DNA of 37,907 nucleotides from a virus: positions 1 to 37,907 of IMG/VR virus record IMGVR_UViG_3300045110_000328; one strand, written 5' to 3'. A program made the translations under genes and the position numbers. Under the pieces are notes generated by a model that saw nothing but the letters and a program-made list of their open reading frames with translations, was not told the origin of the DNA and did not search any database. How positions within the stretch are numbered: the first letter of the stretch is position 1; each line of letters opens with the position of its first letter. Below are positions 4,264 through 37,721 of this stretch, in pieces.

Positions 4264-5192
4264 TGGCCGCGCGGCAGCTCACCGGCGTCAGGTGGAGCGC
4301 GGCGGTGCTCTGCCCGCGGATGGCGGCGTATCAGGGGTTGAAGGCGCCGCACGGCGTGCACGACCAGGTGACGCTGCGGCGCTTCAAGCGCGGCAACGCG
4401 TGGGGCCAGATCATCCGCGACGAGCTCGCCACCAGCCTCCGAGAGCGTGGCGAGCGGCCCGTCTCCGAGGCGGAGATCCTGTGGCCGGCCAAGGCGCCGG
4501 TCGGGATCGGGCACGCCGACCTGTACCGGCCCCGCACACGGCAGATGGTGGAGATCTTCTCGACGGATGGCACCGGCTACCCGGCTCGGAAGGGGATCCA
4601 GGTCGCCGGATACGCCGTCAATCACCGCAAGGCGGACAACGCCAGCGTGCTGGTCGTCGACCGGGTGACGGGCGACGAGGCCTCCTACGACGTCGACCTC
4701 GACGCGCTCGAGCCGCAGGTACGCGCGATCGAGACCGCCGTCGTCGACGCGCTCTCGGGCGGCGAGTTGCCGGAGCGCGTCACGTATGCGCCGTGGGCGT
4801 GGCCGTGCTCGGAGTGCGTGTTCGCCGAGCACTGCTGGGCCGACTGGGAGCCGGTGCCGCTGGCGCAGATTCCGGGCGCCGTCGACGACGCCGCTCGCCT
4901 CGCCGACGCGGAGGACGCCGTCTCCGCTGCCCGCCGCGACGTGAAGGCGCTCGAGCAGGCGCGGGCGGCGATCCGCGACCGTCTGCGGCCGCTCACTCCA
5001 GCCGGCGAGACCGTCGCGGCCGGCGAGATCTCGCTGCGCCGCACCGAGGTCGCGGGCCGCACCACCTTCGCGCTCGGCGACTACCAGGCGGCTGGGCACC
5101 GGCTGCCGCGCCGCGCCCGCGCGTTCATCTCGGAAGGCGCCGGCTCGGAACGCTGGACCGTCAAGCGGACACCTGAGGAGGCGACGTCGTGA
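4263..5192 (+). CDS. Cas4/RecB-like PD-(D/E)XK nuclease with Fe-S cysteines, 309 aa
   Basis: The Cas4-like layout is visible: an N-terminal Cys17 in VLCPRMAAYQ, GHADLY with Asp86, VEIF with Glu97, QVAGY with Gln113 and Tyr117, and a C-terminal triad PCSECVFAEHC (Cys182, Cys185, Cys191) that with Cys17 would hold a 4Fe-4S cluster. The lysine usually two residues after the motif Glu is Phe99 here. Residues about 205-245 form a helical linker and the end is an extra domain of unknown role. ATG 4263 is preferred over GTG 4260 because GGAG (4251-4254) is better spaced. It should act on DNA ends in phage recombination, paired with the gp3-like protein upstream. Confidence 0.75.
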   Translation: MAARQLTGVRWSAAVLCPRMAAYQGLKAPHGVHDQVTLRRFKRGNAWGQIIRDELATSLRERGERPVSEAEILWPAKAPVGIGHADLYRPRTRQMVEIFSTDGTGYPARKGIQVAGYAVNHRKADNASVLVVDRVTGDEASYDVDLDALEPQVRAIETAVVDALSGGELPERVTYAPWAWPCSECVFAEHCWADWEPVPLAQIPGAVDDAARLADAEDAVSAARRDVKALEQARAAIRDRLRPLTPAGETVAAGEISLRRTEVAGRTTFALGDYQAAGHRLPRRARAFISEGAGSERWTVKRTPEEATS

Positions 5193-5662
5193 GACGCCGC
5201 ACCGCCGCCGTCGCCGGCCTGGTCGCCGCCGCGGTCACGCTCGGCGCGCCCGGCGCGGCCGGCGCGGCGCAGGCCCGCGTCCACCACCTCACCATCAGCG
5301 ACGTCGTCCGCATCGCGCACGGCAACCCGTTCGCATGCGACCTGCCACCGAAGGGCCGGCTCGGCTGGAAACAGCTGCACTGCATTACCCGCGTCGTGTT
5401 CCGCCGCGAGCCGTGGCTCGGCCGCGAGGCGGACCTGATCATCGGCTGCGAGTCCGGGTGGGATCGGTGGGAGGTCACCCCGCCGTATAGCGCGAGCGGG
5501 TTGGCGCAGTTCCTGCCGAGCACATGGGCTCGGCTGCCGCGCCGCATCTCGCGCCACAGCGTGTACCACGCCGTCTGGAACGTGATCGGGATGCGGTACC
5601 TGCGGCTCCAGGACGGATCCTGGGTCGAGTGGTCGTGTGCCTCGATCGTGGGCGTCCGATGA
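5189..5662 (+). CDS. Secreted lytic-transglycosylase-like protein, 157 aa
   Basis: GAGGAGG precedes the GTG. The N terminus is a signal peptide: MRRR, a hydrophobic stretch, and an Ala-rich cleavage region near residues 26-28. The mature part has the SLT/lysozyme-fold signature: the Glu88 of GCESGW (catalytic position) and GLAQFLPSTW, with two Cys (50 and 65) that could form a disulfide. The protein should cut or bind peptidoglycan outside the membrane. It is unusual in an early operon, between a nuclease and small membrane proteins. Possible roles are local wall remodelling in lysogens or exclusion; both are inference. Confidence 0.8.
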   Translation: MRRRTAAVAGLVAAAVTLGAPGAAGAAQARVHHLTISDVVRIAHGNPFACDLPPKGRLGWKQLHCITRVVFRREPWLGREADLIIGCESGWDRWEVTPPYSASGLAQFLPSTWARLPRRISRHSVYHAVWNVIGMRYLRLQDGSWVEWSCASIVGVR

Positions 5663-6696: not shown

Positions 6697-6898
6697 CGAG
6701 CGGTTCCCGGAGCTCGTCACTGCCCGCACGCTGCGCGAGGAGACAGGCCTGCCCGACTCCACCGTCCGCGCGATCATCCAGCGCGCCGTCCGCGACGGCA
6801 ACTGCACGCCGATCAAGACGATCCGGACGGTGATGTTCCGCCGCGACGAGCTCGCGCCGTACTTCGGCCTCGACCGTCAGTCCGGAGGCAGCACGTGA
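6689..6898 (+). CDS. Small winged-helix/HTH protein, excisionase candidate, 69 aa
   Basis: After the first few residues, LVTARTLREETGLPDSTVRA followed by IIQRAVRDGN forms a helix-turn-helix, and TVMFRRDELAPYFGL resembles the C-terminal strand/helix of MerR-like excisionases that read 'rRy.ypr.dvl.yl'. The ATG at 6689 is used because an upstream in-frame start at 6656 would lie deep in the previous gene. Its last 22 nt overlap the 3' end of the convergent integrase gene. Size, fold and position fit Xis, although a simple regulator is also possible. Confidence 0.6.
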   Translation: MASERFPELVTARTLREETGLPDSTVRAIIQRAVRDGNCTPIKTIRTVMFRRDELAPYFGLDRQSGGST

Positions 6899-7956
6899 GC
6901 GTAGACGTTCAGCGTCGTCGCCGGCCGCGAGTGGCCGACGCGCGCGGCGACCATGATCGGGTCCCACCCGGCATGCATCAGCCGGCTGATGTGCAGGTGC
7001 CGGAAGTCGTGCGGCGAGAAGTGCCGCACCTTCGCCCTCACACACCCGCGGGCGAGCGCCGCGGCGATCGCGTCGCTGTTCCGCCCGCCAAGCACGTACC
7101 GGCTCGTCCCGCGGCTACTGGCCGGCGTGTCGAGCAGCGCCACCAGCTCGGGCGGGTACTCGGGCAGGTCGTCGACCCACCGCCGCGCGCTCGGCGTCTT
7201 CCCGCTCGCGACCCGGAACCGCGCCCGGCGCCCATCACGATCCTCCCACCGCAGCATCGTCGCCTCACTGATGCGGAGGCCCGAATGCTCGAGCAGCACC
7301 AGCGCGATGTGCGTGTCGTCGTCGAGGCGCGGATAGAGCTTCGCGAGCTCGGCGCGGCTCGGCAGCCGAAACTCGGCCTGGTCGGCGCGCGGGTTCCGAA
7401 CCCGCCGGTCGCGGACCGGGTTCGGTTCGACGCCGGCATGGTCGAGGATCTGCGCGAGCGCTCTCCGGTACTTCGGGAGCGCGCGCGGCTCAACGCCACC
7501 GTCGGCGAGGCCGACCAGCCACGCCTGTACCTCGTCCGTGGTGATCGCCCGGACATCGCGGCCGCGGAACCCGCGCTCGGCGTGCCGGCTGACCGCGGTG
7601 TAGGTCGCGACGGTCGCGGGCTCCAGGTCGACGAGACTCGCGAGCCACGCCTCCCGCGCGTCACTGATCACGAGTCGGCGGGTGGTGACGCGGTGCCGCT
7701 GCAGCGTCTCGATCGTCGGCGTGACGCCCTCGTCGAGCATCATCCGCGCACGCGCGGCGACCAGGTCGGCCGCGTCCCTTGCCGGGTACGACCCGAGGTG
7801 CACGATCGGGTCGTAGCGGCCGGAGGTCATGCGGACGTGGAACCGCTCGGAGCCGTCCTTCAGCTTCCGGCTGACGACGTTGATACTGGCGATCGTCGTG
7901 CCTCCATCGTGTCGCGACCACCCGCAGAGAGCCCGCGGAGCCGCATCATTGCTCAC
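6877..7956 (-). CDS. int: Tyrosine site-specific integrase, 359 aa
   Basis: The full catalytic set is present: Arg228 in HSGLRISEATML, Lys253 in SGKTPSARRW, His316 and Arg319 in SPHDFRHLH, His342 in VGHSRPATT, and the nucleophile Tyr352 in LNVYAHVL. Residues about 25-90 are an arm-binding-type N-terminal domain with strands, and 95-180 the SAM-like core-binding domain. Length is normal for phage integrases. The GTG at 7956 is the only reasonable start. It is transcribed against the early operon and its 3' end overlaps the Xis candidate. The 158-nt upstream region and the start of the gene hold four copies of a 10-mer that could be Int sites. Confidence 0.95.
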   Translation of the reverse strand: MSNDAAPRALCGWSRHDGGTTIASINVVSRKLKDGSERFHVRMTSGRYDPIVHLGSYPARDAADLVAARARMMLDEGVTPTIETLQRHRVTTRRLVISDAREAWLASLVDLEPATVATYTAVSRHAERGFRGRDVRAITTDEVQAWLVGLADGGVEPRALPKYRRALAQILDHAGVEPNPVRDRRVRNPRADQAEFRLPSRAELAKLYPRLDDDTHIALVLLEHSGLRISEATMLRWEDRDGRRARFRVASGKTPSARRWVDDLPEYPPELVALLDTPASSRGTSRYVLGGRNSDAIAAALARGCVRAKVRHFSPHDFRHLHISRLMHAGWDPIMVAARVGHSRPATTLNVYAHVLPPD

Positions 7957-31593: not shown

Positions 31594-33678
31594 ATGGCGA
31601 AGGATCTGGTCGTCATCGTCACCCCGCCGGGCGGCACCATCACGCAGCTCGGCTCCGACCTGGCGCGCGGCGTGTGGGTGGAAGGCGCCTCGTGGGAGCA
31701 CTCGCTCGCCGATCATGGCGCGCTCCGGGCCCAGTTCACGCTGCGGCGCCGTGCCGAGCAGGAATGGCCGGACCTGCAGCCGTTCACGCCCGTCGTGATC
31801 ATGAAGAGTGGCTCGGTGGCGTGGACCGGGCGGATTCAGGAGACGCCGACGATCCGCGGGATGGAGAACCTGATCACCGTCCAGTGCGAGGGGTGGCCGA
31901 TGCACCTCAAGGATGATGTGCTGCAGAAGGTCTTCGTCCACAACGACCTCACCGCGTGGGCTGACGCGCGCACGAAAGGGGTCAGCCTCGCGTCGTGGCG
32001 ACCAGTCGGGTACGAGGTTGATGTCGGGTCTGGCAACATCCGGATCGCCGTCGCCACCGTCGCAGGCGCGGACGTGCTCGGCGGCGTCGTGATCGACGCC
32101 GGCCCCTACTCCACCATCAAGAGCGCCATCGTGACGTATGTCGGCGGCGGCGTCGCGAACCTCGACCTGCGGATCGCCGGCACTGATGGTTCCGTGGCCG
32201 GCGCGCTGGCGGACGTCGCGAACCTCGACCCGACACCGATCGCGACCGTTGCCACCACCGTCGTGAACGTGTTCCCGACCGCGCACCGCTTCGTCCATAT
32301 CTACGCGCGGTCGGTCGCTGCGATCCCGGCGGGCGACACCGCGTGGGTGTCGATCTCGAACATCATCCTGTTCGCCGACGACACCGCCTACCGGGCCGGC
32401 TCCGTCAGTGTCCTAAAAGCGTCGCAGATCATCGCCGCGGTGCTGCCATACGCCCCCAAAATCAGCCAGTCCACGGCGGGGATCTCAACTACGAGCTTCG
32501 GGATCCCGCACTTCGTCGGCCCCGCCACCGCACCCGCCGACTACATCGACGCCGCCAACGCCTACCACCTGTACCAGTGGTTCCTGGAAGACGATGCCGC
32601 CGGCGGCCCGCCGAGCCTCGTGTTCCAGCCGATCCCGACATCCCCCACGCTGGTCGCGAATGTCGGCGCCGGCATCGTCTACGAAGACGCGTCCCGCAAC
32701 GACGGCGGCGACATCTACAACCGCGTCATCGTCGACTCCACCGACGCCGCCGGCAATAACGCACTCGAGGAACGGATGACCGCCACCCTGCCGGCAGCGA
32801 TCGCCGACCCGGACGTCGCGTTCGACACACCCTCGACGGTGCAGCCGAGCGCGAACGCCGCGAGCTTCGACACCGACACCAGCGGATGGCTCACCTCGAC
32901 AGGGACACTCGTCCGCGACACCGGCGTGTTCGACACGGCGCCGGCGAGTGGCCGGTGGGGAACCGACGTCAGCGGCATCATGCGATCCGACATCGTCAGC
33001 ATCCCCGGGCTGACCGTCGGCAAGACGTACCAGTTCACGTACCGGATCCGTGCCGCCGCGACGTGGACGACGGGATCGGCACAGGCGACCATCACCGACG
33101 CAGCGTCGGTGGCCACCTATGCACAAGACGTGTTTACGAACAGCATCGGCGTTGCGTTCATCACGAAAACCCTGACGTTCAAAGCAGCCGTTTCGACGAT
33201 CCGGTTCTTCGTCAGCAACGTGGCCGGCCTGAACGTCAGCACCAACATCCTGTACCTCGACTCGATCCGGATCATGGAATCGCGGCCCACCATCGTCGAC
33301 CGGCAGGGCTTCCAGCGTACCCGCGTCCTCACCACCAGCTCGCGTCTCACGGCGGCGGCGGCGGATCAGATCGGCGACGTGTTCCTGCAAGCCCACCGCT
33401 TCACCCCGCTGCGCGGCACGCTCACCGTGCAAGGAGCCGCGCTCCGCACCGTGCAGGGCGACGTGCCGATCCCCGCCCCCCTCGTCGCACGCTACCTCGG
33501 CGCCGCCGTCCTGATCAACGAGACCGACTTCGACCTCGGCGGCATCGGCCGCGTCGGGAACATCGCCAACGTCGCCTACGACGAAGCATCCGACACCGCG
33601 ACGGTGGCGATCGATACGAGGAAGGACTTCGTGGACGCGCTCCTGGCGCGCCTGGCCGTGTTCACCGGGGGCTCGTGA
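31594..33678 (+). CDS. Tail-tip/minor tail protein with inserted carbohydrate-binding-like module, 694 aa
   Basis: The first 110 residues are a baseplate-type start (WEHSLADHGALRAQFTLRRR, VAWTGRIQETPTIRGMENLI), resembling proteins of the siphovirus tail tip. At about 120-260 and 418-565 there are two inserted beta modules; the second reads ASFDTDTSGWLTSTGTLVRD and GLTVGKTYQFTYRIRAAA, a CBM-like jelly roll. The tail-tip domain resumes near the end (DRQGFQRTRVLTTSSRLTAA). It follows the Dit-like gene after 4 nt. It probably contributes to host recognition. Confidence 0.75.
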   Translation: MAKDLVVIVTPPGGTITQLGSDLARGVWVEGASWEHSLADHGALRAQFTLRRRAEQEWPDLQPFTPVVIMKSGSVAWTGRIQETPTIRGMENLITVQCEGWPMHLKDDVLQKVFVHNDLTAWADARTKGVSLASWRPVGYEVDVGSGNIRIAVATVAGADVLGGVVIDAGPYSTIKSAIVTYVGGGVANLDLRIAGTDGSVAGALADVANLDPTPIATVATTVVNVFPTAHRFVHIYARSVAAIPAGDTAWVSISNIILFADDTAYRAGSVSVLKASQIIAAVLPYAPKISQSTAGISTTSFGIPHFVGPATAPADYIDAANAYHLYQWFLEDDAAGGPPSLVFQPIPTSPTLVANVGAGIVYEDASRNDGGDIYNRVIVDSTDAAGNNALEERMTATLPAAIADPDVAFDTPSTVQPSANAASFDTDTSGWLTSTGTLVRDTGVFDTAPASGRWGTDVSGIMRSDIVSIPGLTVGKTYQFTYRIRAAATWTTGSAQATITDAASVATYAQDVFTNSIGVAFITKTLTFKAAVSTIRFFVSNVAGLNVSTNILYLDSIRIMESRPTIVDRQGFQRTRVLTTSSRLTAAAADQIGDVFLQAHRFTPLRGTLTVQGAALRTVQGDVPIPAPLVARYLGAAVLINETDFDLGGIGRVGNIANVAYDEASDTATVAIDTRKDFVDALLARLAVFTGGS

Positions 33679-33896
33679 CGCGCGACTCGCTCTTCGGCCG
33701 GTTCGCGGCCGGCGTGTTCACGATCCTCGTCCTGTACGGCTGCGCGATGACCGGCGTCGTGCTGTACGGCGACCCGTCGCTCGCGTCGAAGATGATCAGC
33801 GGATTCGGAACGATGTTCGCCGGCGTGCTCGGCCTCGGCACCGGCTACCTCCTGGGCACCGCCACGGCGGCGAACGGGAGAACCGACGGCCGCTGA
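33675..33896 (+). CDS. Small two-helix membrane protein, 73 aa
   Basis: The GTG overlaps the previous stop. Two membrane helices are visible (FAAGVFTILVLYGCAMTGVV and TMFAGVLGLGTGYLLGTATA) with short soluble ends and an Arg-rich tail. The size and topology are holin-like. It lies ahead of, not beside, the endolysin, so it may be a holin, antiholin or membrane accessory. Its TGA overlaps the next ATG. Confidence 0.6.
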   Translation: MTRDSLFGRFAAGVFTILVLYGCAMTGVVLYGDPSLASKMISGFGTMFAGVLGLGTGYLLGTATAANGRTDGR

Positions 33897-34237
33897 TGCC
33901 GATCTGGGTCGGCACCGTGCTCGCCGCGCTCTTGGTGGCCGGTGGCGGCGCCGGCGGGTTCCTGGCGTTCTGGAACCGCAAGCCCGACCTGGCCTCCAAG
34001 ATGGTCGCGCAGGCCGCCGCCGTCGTCGACACGATGGAGGCGCTGAACGCGCAGCTGCGGGCCGCGCTCGGCGACACCCAGATCGCGCTCGCGTCCGCCG
34101 TCGCGGAGCTGAAACGCTCGCAGGAGCGCGAGGACCGGCTGACCACCGAGGTGGCGGCGCTGCGCAGCGACGTCGCCCACCTGCAATCCGTGATCGAGAG
34201 GGGGTTCACCGGGCATGGAGCCGGAACGGTCGACTGA
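33896..34237 (+). CDS. Membrane-anchored coiled-coil protein, 113 aa
   Basis: An N-terminal membrane helix ([20 protein letters not shown]) is followed by FWNRK and a long coiled coil (about 35-100) with regular heptads ([20 protein letters not shown]). The Arg/Lys after the helix predicts the coil in the cytoplasm. It overlaps the collagen-like gene by 23 nt. It may be part of the lysis control group (spanin or antiholin-like), but the family is unknown. Confidence 0.6.
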
Positions 34238-35000
34238 TCTCGTGGTGGCTGCCACCGGCGACGTGTCCGACGCCGTCCACCAGGCCAAGATGGGCCAGCA
34301 GCTGCAGGCGCAGCGCACCCACCGGGCGCTGGTGCTGATGACGCTCGCGCTGGCGGTGATCGCGATCGTCGCGGGCCTGTCGATGCTGCTCACGATCCGC
34401 GCCACCCACGACGTCACCAGCCGCAATCGCGACCTGGCGATCGAGGCGCAGGTGAAGGCGACCCGGTCGCAGCTGGCGGCGAACCAGGCGAAGATCGACG
34501 CGGCGCAGGCGGAGACGCGTGCGAACGCTGCCCGGATCGTGTCGATCGCCTCGCAGCAGAAGAACGCCGCCACCATCCGCTGCCTGACCCTGAAAACGCG
34601 GCGTCAGGTAGCGCGCTGCCTCGGCGCCCAGCCGGGCGCGCCGGGCAGGCCGGGCGCGCCGGGTGGGGCGGGCACGCCCGGCCCGGTCGGCACCGCCGGC
34701 GTGAACGGCCTGCCGGGACTGAGCGGCCGTCCCGGCCCCGCCGGTGCGGTCGGTGCCGCTGGCAGTGTCGGCGCGGCCGGTCAGACGGGCGCTCAGGGCG
34801 ATCAAGGCGCCACAGGAGCCACCGGCGGTGGCGGCGCGACGGGCGACACAGGGCCTGCTGGGCCTGCTGGGCCCCCTGGACCGGCCGGGCCGCAAGGCCC
34901 GCAAGGCGACCCCGGCCCGCAAGGCCCGCAGGGCCCAGCCGCCGGCACCCTGACCTGCACCACCGCCGACCAGGTGACGTTCACCTGCGTCCCCGCCTAA
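34215..35000 (+). CDS. Membrane-anchored collagen-like protein, 261 aa
   Basis: Residues about 39-61 are a membrane helix preceded by QRTHR, predicting N-in/C-out. Residues 62-120 are a coiled coil. Residues 141-240 are 33 to 34 uninterrupted Gly-X-Y triplets ([11 protein letters not shown], later [18 protein letters not shown]), a collagen-like triple helix. Cys123 and Cys135 precede and Cys248 and Cys258 follow the collagen part, so interchain disulfides are possible. The protein would project as a trimeric stalk from the cell surface, or be a tail fibre with a membrane-like segment. It is in the late operon after the tail tip genes. Confidence 0.85.
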
Positions 35001-35022: not shown

Positions 35023-35118
35023 ATGCCGCTGCTGACCACCATCTCCACGGGCACGCTGATCACGATCGCCGTGGTGCTGGCGATCCTGTGCATGGTCGTG
35101 TGGCTCGTCCGCCGCTAG
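35023..35118 (+). CDS. Micro membrane protein, 31 aa
   Basis: AGGGAG lies before the ATG. The product MPLLTTISTGTLITIAVVLA followed by ILCMVVWLVRR is one membrane helix with a basic C-terminal end, which predicts N-out/C-in. It is followed by a classic terminator. It may regulate the holin or be a small envelope peptide; no family. Confidence 0.55.
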   Translation: MPLLTTISTGTLITIAVVLAILCMVVWLVRR

Positions 35119-35215: not shown

Positions 35216-35479
35216 GTGCCCGTCCGCCGCAAGGTGCAAGCCGGCGCGCTGGGAGGCGCGCTCGGCATCATCCTGGTCTGGATCCTGTCCGGCCCGGCAG
35301 GGCTCGACGTGCCGCCCGAAGTGGGCGCTGCGATCTCGACCGTGACCGGAGCCGCGCTCGGCTGGCTGGTGCCCGAATCCCAGCAGGACCTCCCGCAGAT
35401 GGCGCCGGCGGCTCCCGTGCCGGCGCCGGACGCGGCGATCCCCGACGAACCGATGCCGGCCGACCCAGGAGCCCCGTGA
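35216..35479 (+). CDS. Holin candidate, 87 aa
   Basis: AAGGAGG (35201-35207) is 8 nt from the GTG at 35216, preferred to the TTG at 35198. Two membrane helices are visible (GALGGALGIILVWILSGPAG and VGAAISTVTGAALGWLVP) with a basic N terminus, then a Pro/Ala/acidic tail. A GALGG..G..L.W...G start and position directly before the endolysin are typical of actinophage holins. It would form membrane lesions releasing the endolysin. Its stop overlaps the endolysin ATG. Confidence 0.75.
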   Translation: MPVRRKVQAGALGGALGIILVWILSGPAGLDVPPEVGAAISTVTGAALGWLVPESQQDLPQMAPAAPVPAPDAAIPDEPMPADPGAP

Positions 35480-36246
35480 TGGCAAACCGCGTGCTCGGCC
35501 TCACCTCGCCGCACATGCACGGCGACGATGTGAGGGCCCTCCAGAGGGCGCTCAAGACGAACGCCTTCCACAAGGACTACATGCCTGACGGGAAGGTCGA
35601 CGGGGTGTTCTCGACGTTCACCGCGCAGGGCGCCTACCGCGCCCAGTACTGGCTCGGCTACGCCACCCCCAGCCACAAGGCCGGCACACCGCTGGTCGCC
35701 TACCTCTCCGGCAAGCGACCGCTGACGGTGGCGATGACCGCGAAGCGCAAGGCGCGCATCGACGCCTACCAGGCCGCCCATCCGCTCCGGCTGCGGGCGT
35801 TCGAGTCGGCGAAACGGTTCGTCGGCACGAAGGAGTCGCCGGCCGGATCGAACCGGCAGAAGTTCGGCGTCTGGTACGGCTGGAACGGCGTCGCCTGGTG
35901 CGCGATCTTCGTGTCGTACAACTACGCCTCCGCCGGATCGAAGATGACCGCGCGGATGAAGCGGTGGGCGTACTGCCCGTACCTGTGGGCGGACGCCCAC
36001 GCAGGCCGGTTCGGCCTGTCGGTCACCCGCAGCCCGCAGCGGGGCGACATCGTCATCTACGGCAAGACGCTGCCGCACCACACCGAGCTGTTCGACGAGT
36101 GGATCGTGCCCGGCAAGACGTTCGCGACGATCGGCGGCAACACGTCGCCAAACGACATGTCCAACGGCGGCGAGGTGCACCACTACGACGCCTCGAACCC
36201 GCGCACGATGAGCGACGTCGCCGGGTTCGTGCACCTGGCGGCGTGA
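35479..36246 (+). CDS. Endolysin: peptidoglycan-binding domain plus CHAP-type amidase/peptidase, 255 aa
   Basis: Residues about 8-78 form a PG_binding_1-like domain (DDVRALQRALKTNAF, KVDGVFSTFTAQGAYRAQYW). The rest is a CHAP/NlpC-like cysteine hydrolase: RFVGTKESPAGSNRQKFGVW, Cys141 in GVAWCAIFVSYNY, RGDIVIYGKTLPHHTELF with His200/201, and Asn221 in IGGNT. The Cys-His-Asn set fits catalysis. There is no signal peptide, so it depends on a holin. The ATG at 35479 overlaps the holin TGA. Confidence 0.9.
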   Translation: MANRVLGLTSPHMHGDDVRALQRALKTNAFHKDYMPDGKVDGVFSTFTAQGAYRAQYWLGYATPSHKAGTPLVAYLSGKRPLTVAMTAKRKARIDAYQAAHPLRLRAFESAKRFVGTKESPAGSNRQKFGVWYGWNGVAWCAIFVSYNYASAGSKMTARMKRWAYCPYLWADAHAGRFGLSVTRSPQRGDIVIYGKTLPHHTELFDEWIVPGKTFATIGGNTSPNDMSNGGEVHHYDASNPRTMSDVAGFVHLAA

Positions 36247-36686: not shown

Positions 36687-37022
36687 GTGACGAGAGACTG
36701 GGTCGTGCCGGCGATCATCCGGGCCGTCCACGACGGAGACACGGCGACGGTCGATGCCGATCTGGGCTGGACCATCACCTACCGCGTGCACGTCCGGATC
36801 GCCCACATCAACGCGCCCGAGCTGACGACGCCGGCAGGACTCGTCGCCAAGACGGCGGCGCTCGAGCTGCTGCCGCTGGGATCGACCGTGACGCTCACCT
36901 CCCATTCGCTCGACAAGTACGGGCGGACACTCGGATCGCTGACGCTCAAGGACGGCTCGGACTTCGCCGTGGCGATGATGGCGGGCGGGTTCGCGGTCCC
37001 GTACGAAGGCGGTCCCCGGTGA
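36687..37022 (+). CDS. Staphylococcal-nuclease-like protein, 111 aa
   Basis: The SNase layout is complete: AIIRAVHDGDTATV (Asp18 equals nuclease Asp21), VRIAHINAPEL (Arg37 equals Arg35, Glu45 equals Glu43), then DKYGRTLG with Arg80 (equals Arg87). The calcium ligand Asp40 is Asn42 here. There is no signal peptide. It may degrade DNA or RNA late in infection, or have a structural binding role. It is coupled to the next gene by GTGA. Confidence 0.8.
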   Translation: MTRDWVVPAIIRAVHDGDTATVDADLGWTITYRVHVRIAHINAPELTTPAGLVAKTAALELLPLGSTVTLTSHSLDKYGRTLGSLTLKDGSDFAVAMMAGGFAVPYEGGPR

Positions 37023-37219
37023 GCGACTGGATCTGGCTGCTGCTGATCGTGCCGGTCGTGATCTTCGAGCTGGTGTGCGCATTCGTGAAGCGCCGCCCCG
37101 CGCGCACCATCTCGGAGAACGTGCGCGGCTGGGAGAAGGGCCGCTGGTACGTGCGCGTCGTGTTCGGCGCGCTGATCGTGGTGCTGTTCCTGCACATCGT
37201 TTGGCCAGGGTGGTGGTAA
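37019..37219 (+). CDS. Two-helix membrane protein, 66 aa
   Basis: The GTG overlaps the SNase stop. Helix 1 is WIWLLLIVPVVIFELVCAFV, then a basic KRRPARTISENVRGWEKGRW loop, then helix 2 (VVFGALIVVLFLHIVW). The basic loop suggests both ends outside and the loop inside. It is a second holin or holin-partner candidate. No family is recognised. Confidence 0.65.
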   Translation: MSDWIWLLLIVPVVIFELVCAFVKRRPARTISENVRGWEKGRWYVRVVFGALIVVLFLHIVWPGWW

Positions 37220-37644: not shown

Positions 37645-37721
37645 TGGTGCCCCCGGGAGGATTCAAACCTCCGACCGGCCCTACGACCAATAGGCTGCTC
37701 TATTCGCTGAGCTACGGGGGC
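37645..37721 (-). tRNA. Divergent tRNA-Thr(GGT)-like gene with encoded CCA
   Basis: On the minus strand GCCCCCG pairs with CGGGGGC (7 bp), followed by A73 and encoded CCA. The D arm is GCTC/GAGC with an 8-nt loop AGCGAATA. The T arm is GGAGG/CCTCC with loop TTTGAAT. The anticodon loop TTGGTCG reads GGT (Thr, codon ACC), and G1-C72 and C2-G71 fit Thr identity. Odd points are the missing G19, C at 37 instead of a purine, one extra base around the anticodon stem, and T for C at 56. It may be a degenerate, chimeric or phage-altered tRNA. Its 3' end faces the phage genes. Confidence 0.7.

Follow-up and report, generated by a model that had tools for sequence, protein, structure and literature searches.

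A membrane-anchored collagen-like phage protein that most likely belongs to the lysis module

The stretch of viral DNA analysed here, called the window (37,907 nt, positions 1 to 37,907 of IMG/VR record IMGVR_UViG_3300045110_000328), encodes a membrane-anchored collagen-like protein of 261 amino acids (34215-35000, plus strand, as for all features of its lysis region given below). This protein is most likely a membrane protein of the lysis module rather than a fibre. We assign a probability of about 0.5 to the more specific reading that it is a late protein of the host membrane, is not part of virions and aids envelope disruption or release beside a small membrane partner, a holin and an endolysin. 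For computational evidence, the arguments against a virion fibre are strong, and those for the exact role in lysis are moderate. The architecture, the partner, the cassette context and the separate inheritance were computed, and the absence of a relative from the virion of phage ArV2 was taken from the published work on that phage.

Architecture of the collagen-like protein

The open reading frame begins with an ATG start codon that is backed by alignment with a relative on another viral contig (L002). A preliminary description of the window, made from the sequence alone, had reported this frame with an N-terminal membrane helix. We found the same coordinates and place the transmembrane (TM) segment at residues 39-57 (34329-34385; Kyte-Doolittle 2.62). 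An Ala-rich, long predicted helix outside the membrane follows (residues 58-124; 34386-34586). It had been taken for a coiled coil, and structure prediction indeed gives a long helix over residues 5-124. However, a Fourier test of residues 62-122 revealed no 3.4-3.7-residue periodicity above shuffled sequences (p = 0.90), so that a coiled coil is not shown. Just N-terminal of the collagen region, a Cys123...Cys135 motif lies in a predicted helix-turn-helix (34581-34619). The collagen region itself is an unbroken series of exactly 34 Gly-X-Y triplets (residues 141-242; 34635-34940), in agreement with the 33 to 34 perfect triplets counted before. Shuffling the protein 20,000 times gave longest runs of 2.7 triplets on average and of at most 9. 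The tip is a predicted beta hairpin with Cys248 and Cys258 (34950-34988). The protein matches the Pfam Collagen family (PF01391, E = 1.6e-13), which places it among the collagen-like proteins, as well as phrog_1806 (collagen like minor tail, E = 2e-18).

In the AlphaFold2 model of a single chain (mean pLDDT 60), the better part comprises the helices 5-124 and 129-135, and the hairpin 246-258 is of modest confidence. The collagen region is unmodelled, as expected for one chain. The predicted strands E246-249 and E255-258 form the hairpin that holds Cys248 and Cys258. Positions 123, 135, 248 and 258 are the only cysteines of the protein, and Cys123 and Cys135 are invariant across eight aligned relatives. 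The flanking cysteine pairs of the preliminary description are therefore present, but the trimer lock proposed for them finds no support in the monomer model. Because the pairs sit in a predicted helix-turn-helix and a predicted beta hairpin, each looks a better fit to an intrachain disulfide than to an interchain lock.

The membrane topology was deduced from hydropathy and modest charge differences. In 22 of 25 members the N-terminal side of the TM segment is more positive than the C-terminal side; of the other three, two are balanced and one shows the opposite. In the window protein the flanks carry +3 before and +2 after the segment, a margin of one charge, by which an N-in/C-out orientation is weakly indicated.

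Relatives, rod length and tips

The preliminary description had pointed to lysis regions of other phages as a place to look for TM-collagen proteins, and the architecture does recur: no fewer than 18 distinct loci on viral contigs have it, as do 14 isolate phages of Arthrobacter and Microbacterium that were inspected (genes of 13 translated; PeggyLeg03 by annotation only). The close relatives (L002, L003, L068, L082, L084, L085 and L087, with L068 and L086 on one contig) carry a C-L...C...QPGAPG motif before the collagen region and two cysteines at the end. L005, L075, L091, L140 and further contigs share this layout but little of the sequence. Of these, L140 is a prophage in a Micrococcales MAG and the one useful prophage from a profile search of genome contigs, which otherwise returned mostly unrelated bacterial collagens. 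The window gene, like a tail gene, gave no tblastn or blastn matches among isolate phages, probably because low-complexity filtering hides the collagen region. The isolate phages were reached instead with queries from the remote relatives L140 and L091 and with the tip of phage Maja, and the matches in the tip region belong to phages of Arthrobacter and to Microbacterium phage R1. Their genes are usually annotated as minor tail protein, and otherwise as tail fiber protein, lysin B, membrane protein or hypothetical protein. The TM-collagen gene of R1 (L177:2982-3617) is the one annotated as lysin B, while the same type of gene is called "minor tail protein" elsewhere. A description of TM collagens in lysis cassettes was not found in the open-access literature.

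Collagen rises by 0.286 nm per residue. The collagen regions of 21 collagen-type members span 78-131 residues (mean 106), which corresponds to 22-37 nm, about 30 nm on average. In Zaheer, MrSmee, Sarge and Constance (L184, L185, L186 and L187), the rod consists largely of repeats of about 30 amino acids, each with a Cys pair and a short piece of collagen. Since these repeats replace much of the collagen, conservation may apply to the rod and not to collagen in particular.

Of 92 N-terminal residues, 90 are identical in the proteins of phages Cole and Maja, against only 10 of 33 aligned residues in their tips. Cole gp22 (L175:2877-3614) and Maja gp21 (L176:2841-3623) thus combine near-identical anchors with differing tips, as if recombination swaps tips. 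We also considered whether the type of endolysin tracks the type of tip. This was rejected, as Zaheer has Maja's class of tip, yet the start of its endolysin resembles that of Cole.

The upstream partner and the lysis genes

The most constant companion of the TM collagens, absent from the preliminary description, is a single-TM gene directly upstream. In the window it encodes 113 amino acids (33896-34237) and overlaps the collagen gene by 23 bp. Under an automatic rule, a single-TM gene of 60-140 amino acids adjoins or overlaps upstream in 16 of the 18 distinct TM collagens that could be scored for an upstream gene. The rule missed L005 and L192 owing to gene-calling and length limits; on inspection both have a suitable upstream frame, which brings the count to 18 of 18. 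Among 20 scorable collagens without a TM segment, a convenience sample with unmatched hosts, no single-TM upstream neighbour was observed (0/20 against 16/18 by the rule; Fisher p = 7e-9). All 18 TM collagens carry at least two cysteines, which fits an oxidising place outside the cytoplasm, whereas the collagens without TM mostly carry none or one.

The partner comes in two orders, TM then helix or helix then TM. In both orders the helix side is usually the more positive one, which suggests that the helix would be cytoplasmic. The window partner has its TM segment at residues 7-25, with a charge of 0 before and +2 after, followed by a predicted helix at 30-106. The basic residues after the TM segment suggest an N-out/C-in orientation. 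In length (92-150 amino acids), single N-terminal TM, basic residues after it and extended helical domain, it corresponds to LysF1b-like proteins. It contains no cysteine and hence no lipobox, unlike the outer-membrane lipoprotein of two-component spanins. The partner of another locus (L264) has weak matches to holin and hemolysin PHROGs.

The partner-collagen pair has holins and various types of endolysin as neighbours. In the window, the partner is preceded by a small membrane protein of 73 amino acids (33675-33896) for which no family match was found. Small membrane proteins and lysis genes had been noted downstream, and this is borne out by a single-TM peptide of 31 amino acids (35023-35118), an 87-amino-acid holin (35216-35479; phrog_9284, E = 1e-10) and an endolysin (35479-36246; phrog_9589, E = 8e-10, with sub-threshold matches to CHAP and the peptidoglycan-binding PG_binding_1). 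A two-TM protein of 66 amino acids follows at 37019-37219. Elsewhere in the window, a tyrosine-integrase-like gene (minus strand, 6877-7956) and, close to the right end, a tRNA-Thr (37645-37721) indicate that the phage is probably temperate, possibly with host flank in the window. From the high GC content and the hosts of the relatives, its host is probably a high-GC, actinobacterial bacterium.

Surface decoration, exclusion or a part in lysis had been offered as roles, and a part in lysis is now the best supported of these. Decoration and exclusion remain as its leading rival, one that we consider unlikely. Anchored rods would coat the infected cell and its debris late in infection and block receptors, so that progeny would not re-adsorb and other phages would be excluded. 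An exposed rod as long as the wall is thick, the tip of which can be exchanged as in Cole and Maja, would suit such a role, and so would gene positions that are compatible with late expression. On the other hand, no match to a defence family was found, and this reading would need an extra explanation for why the gene is consistently coupled to a LysF1b-like partner and to lysis genes.

Inheritance apart from virion genes

The contig that carries L002 (G003) was compared, at a threshold of E 1e-3, with every called window protein of at least 40 amino acids. The partner is 59% identical, the collagen-like protein 69%, the holin 73% and the two-TM protein, which is encoded by the last membrane gene of the cassette and by the gene that ends the lysis region of G003, 83%. 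Also common to both are a 58-amino-acid gene, a repressor-like gene, a small DNA-binding-like gene, an integrase (31%) and a probably secreted protein (70%). The latter (5189-5662 in the window, 157 amino acids, N-terminal hydrophobic segment) looks by eye like a secreted transglycosylase. In G003 it is located within the lysis region, between collagen and holin; its place in the window is distant from the lysis genes and beside a nuclease-like gene. None of the terminase, portal, protease, capsid and tail genes of the window was matched in G003 at this threshold; the collagen-like protein is thus shared with G003 while no virion gene is, and it was not inherited with tail genes. The window capsid protein is absent from the contigs G004 and G005 too and, among eight records searched, was matched in a single virus record. 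The neighbours of the pair in L003 are an endolysin and the large terminase subunit, not tail genes. In the Arthrobacter phages, the block of partner, collagen, endolysin and holin sits between tail genes.

Evidence from the ArV2 virion

In Arthrobacter phage ArV2, ORF19-22 are the partner, the collagen protein, the endolysin and a two-TM holin-like gene. The collagen protein, gp20 (L174:3338-4114), has the same architecture as that of the window and offers several tryptic peptides of usable length. Table 2 of the virion mass spectrometry lists ORF15-18 and ORF23-24 and omits ORF19-22 (PMC4205034). The text of this paper is inconsistent: one sentence has gp20 detected and another places ORF21 in the virion, while Table 2 contains neither and the closing paragraph calls gp20 not detectable (PMC4205034). 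Given this inconsistency, we regard the table as strong but not final evidence against a place in the virion.

Most annotations and PHROG 1806 would make the protein a virion fibre, whose hydrophobic segment would have to pack into the tail. The doubt already voiced about a fibre is strengthened by the lysis-gene context, by the shared cassette in G003, whose virion genes are unrelated, and by the ArV2 table, and we judge this reading distinctly improbable. It draws on PHROG 1806 and 18350, both of which match from the TM region onward, although the phrog_1806 profile itself probably takes in TM-anchored members. Tail genes are nearby in many phages, and low abundance or poor recovery, as suggested by the ArV2 authors, could account for the missing peptides (PMC4205034). 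Against it stand the inheritance with lysis genes in G003, the ArV2 relative missing from Table 2, the position of the L003 pair beside the terminase, and a real TM segment with conserved cysteine pairs. Trixie gp7, a collagen without TM and with one cysteine, shows the contrast.

A proposed role in lysis

In the lysis role that we favour, an N-terminal signal anchor would hold the protein in the host membrane, N-in/C-out. Outside the membrane, the helix would lead into a triple-helical collagen stalk whose tip would be disulfide-bonded, and the putative trimer would project roughly 40 nm. This should be enough to cross an actinobacterial wall, the thickness of which was taken from general knowledge. 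The protein, presumably expressed late, would work beside the partner with its cytoplasmic helix and LysF1b-like topology, the holin and the endolysin. After the holin and the endolysin have acted, the rod may help to disrupt outer envelope layers or to release progeny, as proposed for LysZ, a single-TM, N-in/C-out lysis protein (PMC13056207). The window protein likewise combines a single TM segment, a predicted N-in/C-out topology and a place in the lysis module. This envelope-disrupting step is suggested by analogy with LysZ and by the LysF1b-like partner, and deletion of LysF1b causes a severe lysis defect (PMC13056207). Two observations weigh on the other side. Arthrobacter hosts have no outer membrane, so that membrane fusion of the spanin type has no target, and a strict ruler is at odds with the range of 22-37 nm and with the Cys-rich repeats that replace much of the collagen in some relatives.

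A sensor or regulator of lysis timing seems to us the least probable reading. Its outside tip would sense superinfection or the envelope state, and the pair would control the holin in the manner of T4 RI and holin T. Such a role accords with a two-gene membrane pair that has an outside tip and a cytoplasmic helix, with the exchange of tips between Cole and Maja and with the altered lysis timing caused by LysF1b (PMC13056207), but a known regulatory domain is absent and a 30-nm rod is unnecessary for holin control.

As a tentative generalization, phages of Gram-positive actinobacteria might possess lysis rods that span the wall and consist of a collagen triple helix, a counterpart of spanins in the absence of an outer membrane, with exchangeable tips and a cytoplasmic partner; this class would so far have been filed as tail fibres. 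By default, collagens of phages are classed as fibres. Should the present set consist of membrane-anchored lysis proteins, a widespread class of actinobacterial phage proteins would be misnamed, and the poorly understood final step of lysis through thick walls would gain a testable component. The Arthrobacter phages Cole, Maja and ArV2, which carry such genes, are culturable.

Comparison with known systems

LysZ of the Corynebacterium glutamicum phages CL31 and Cog is likewise a single-TM lysis protein of actinobacterial phages, predicted N-in/C-out and with its bulk outside the membrane (PMC13056207). The likeness lies in these described features, and LysZ differs in its 177 amino acids, in having no collagen reported and in its mycolic-acid hosts (PMC13056207). 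The LysF1b-like proteins of the mycobacteriophages Girr and NBJ resemble the partner in their length of about 92-150 amino acids, one N-terminal TM with basic residues after it, predicted N-out/C-in topology, extended charged helix and short gene overlap. In F1 phages, however, the companion is the two-TM LysF1a and not a collagen protein, and some partners in our set have the helix first and the TM last. These C-terminal-TM partners resemble XhlA of the Bacillus prophage PBSX, a small helix-then-TM membrane protein in a lysis cassette, which differs in lacking a collagen companion. With spanins (Rz/Rz1 and u-spanins), the pair shares an overlapping two-gene unit in a lysis cassette and would share a rod that is anchored in the inner membrane and reaches outward. 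Here, however, the partner is no outer-membrane lipoprotein, an outer membrane is missing in the hosts Arthrobacter and Microbacterium, and the rod is collagen. The collagen-like minor tail proteins of phages (PHROG 1806, PF01391) share the collagen repeats and a profile match over most of the protein, whereas the window protein is set apart from them by its TM anchor, its cysteine pairs, its inheritance with the lysis module and a relative that is missing from the ArV2 virion table.
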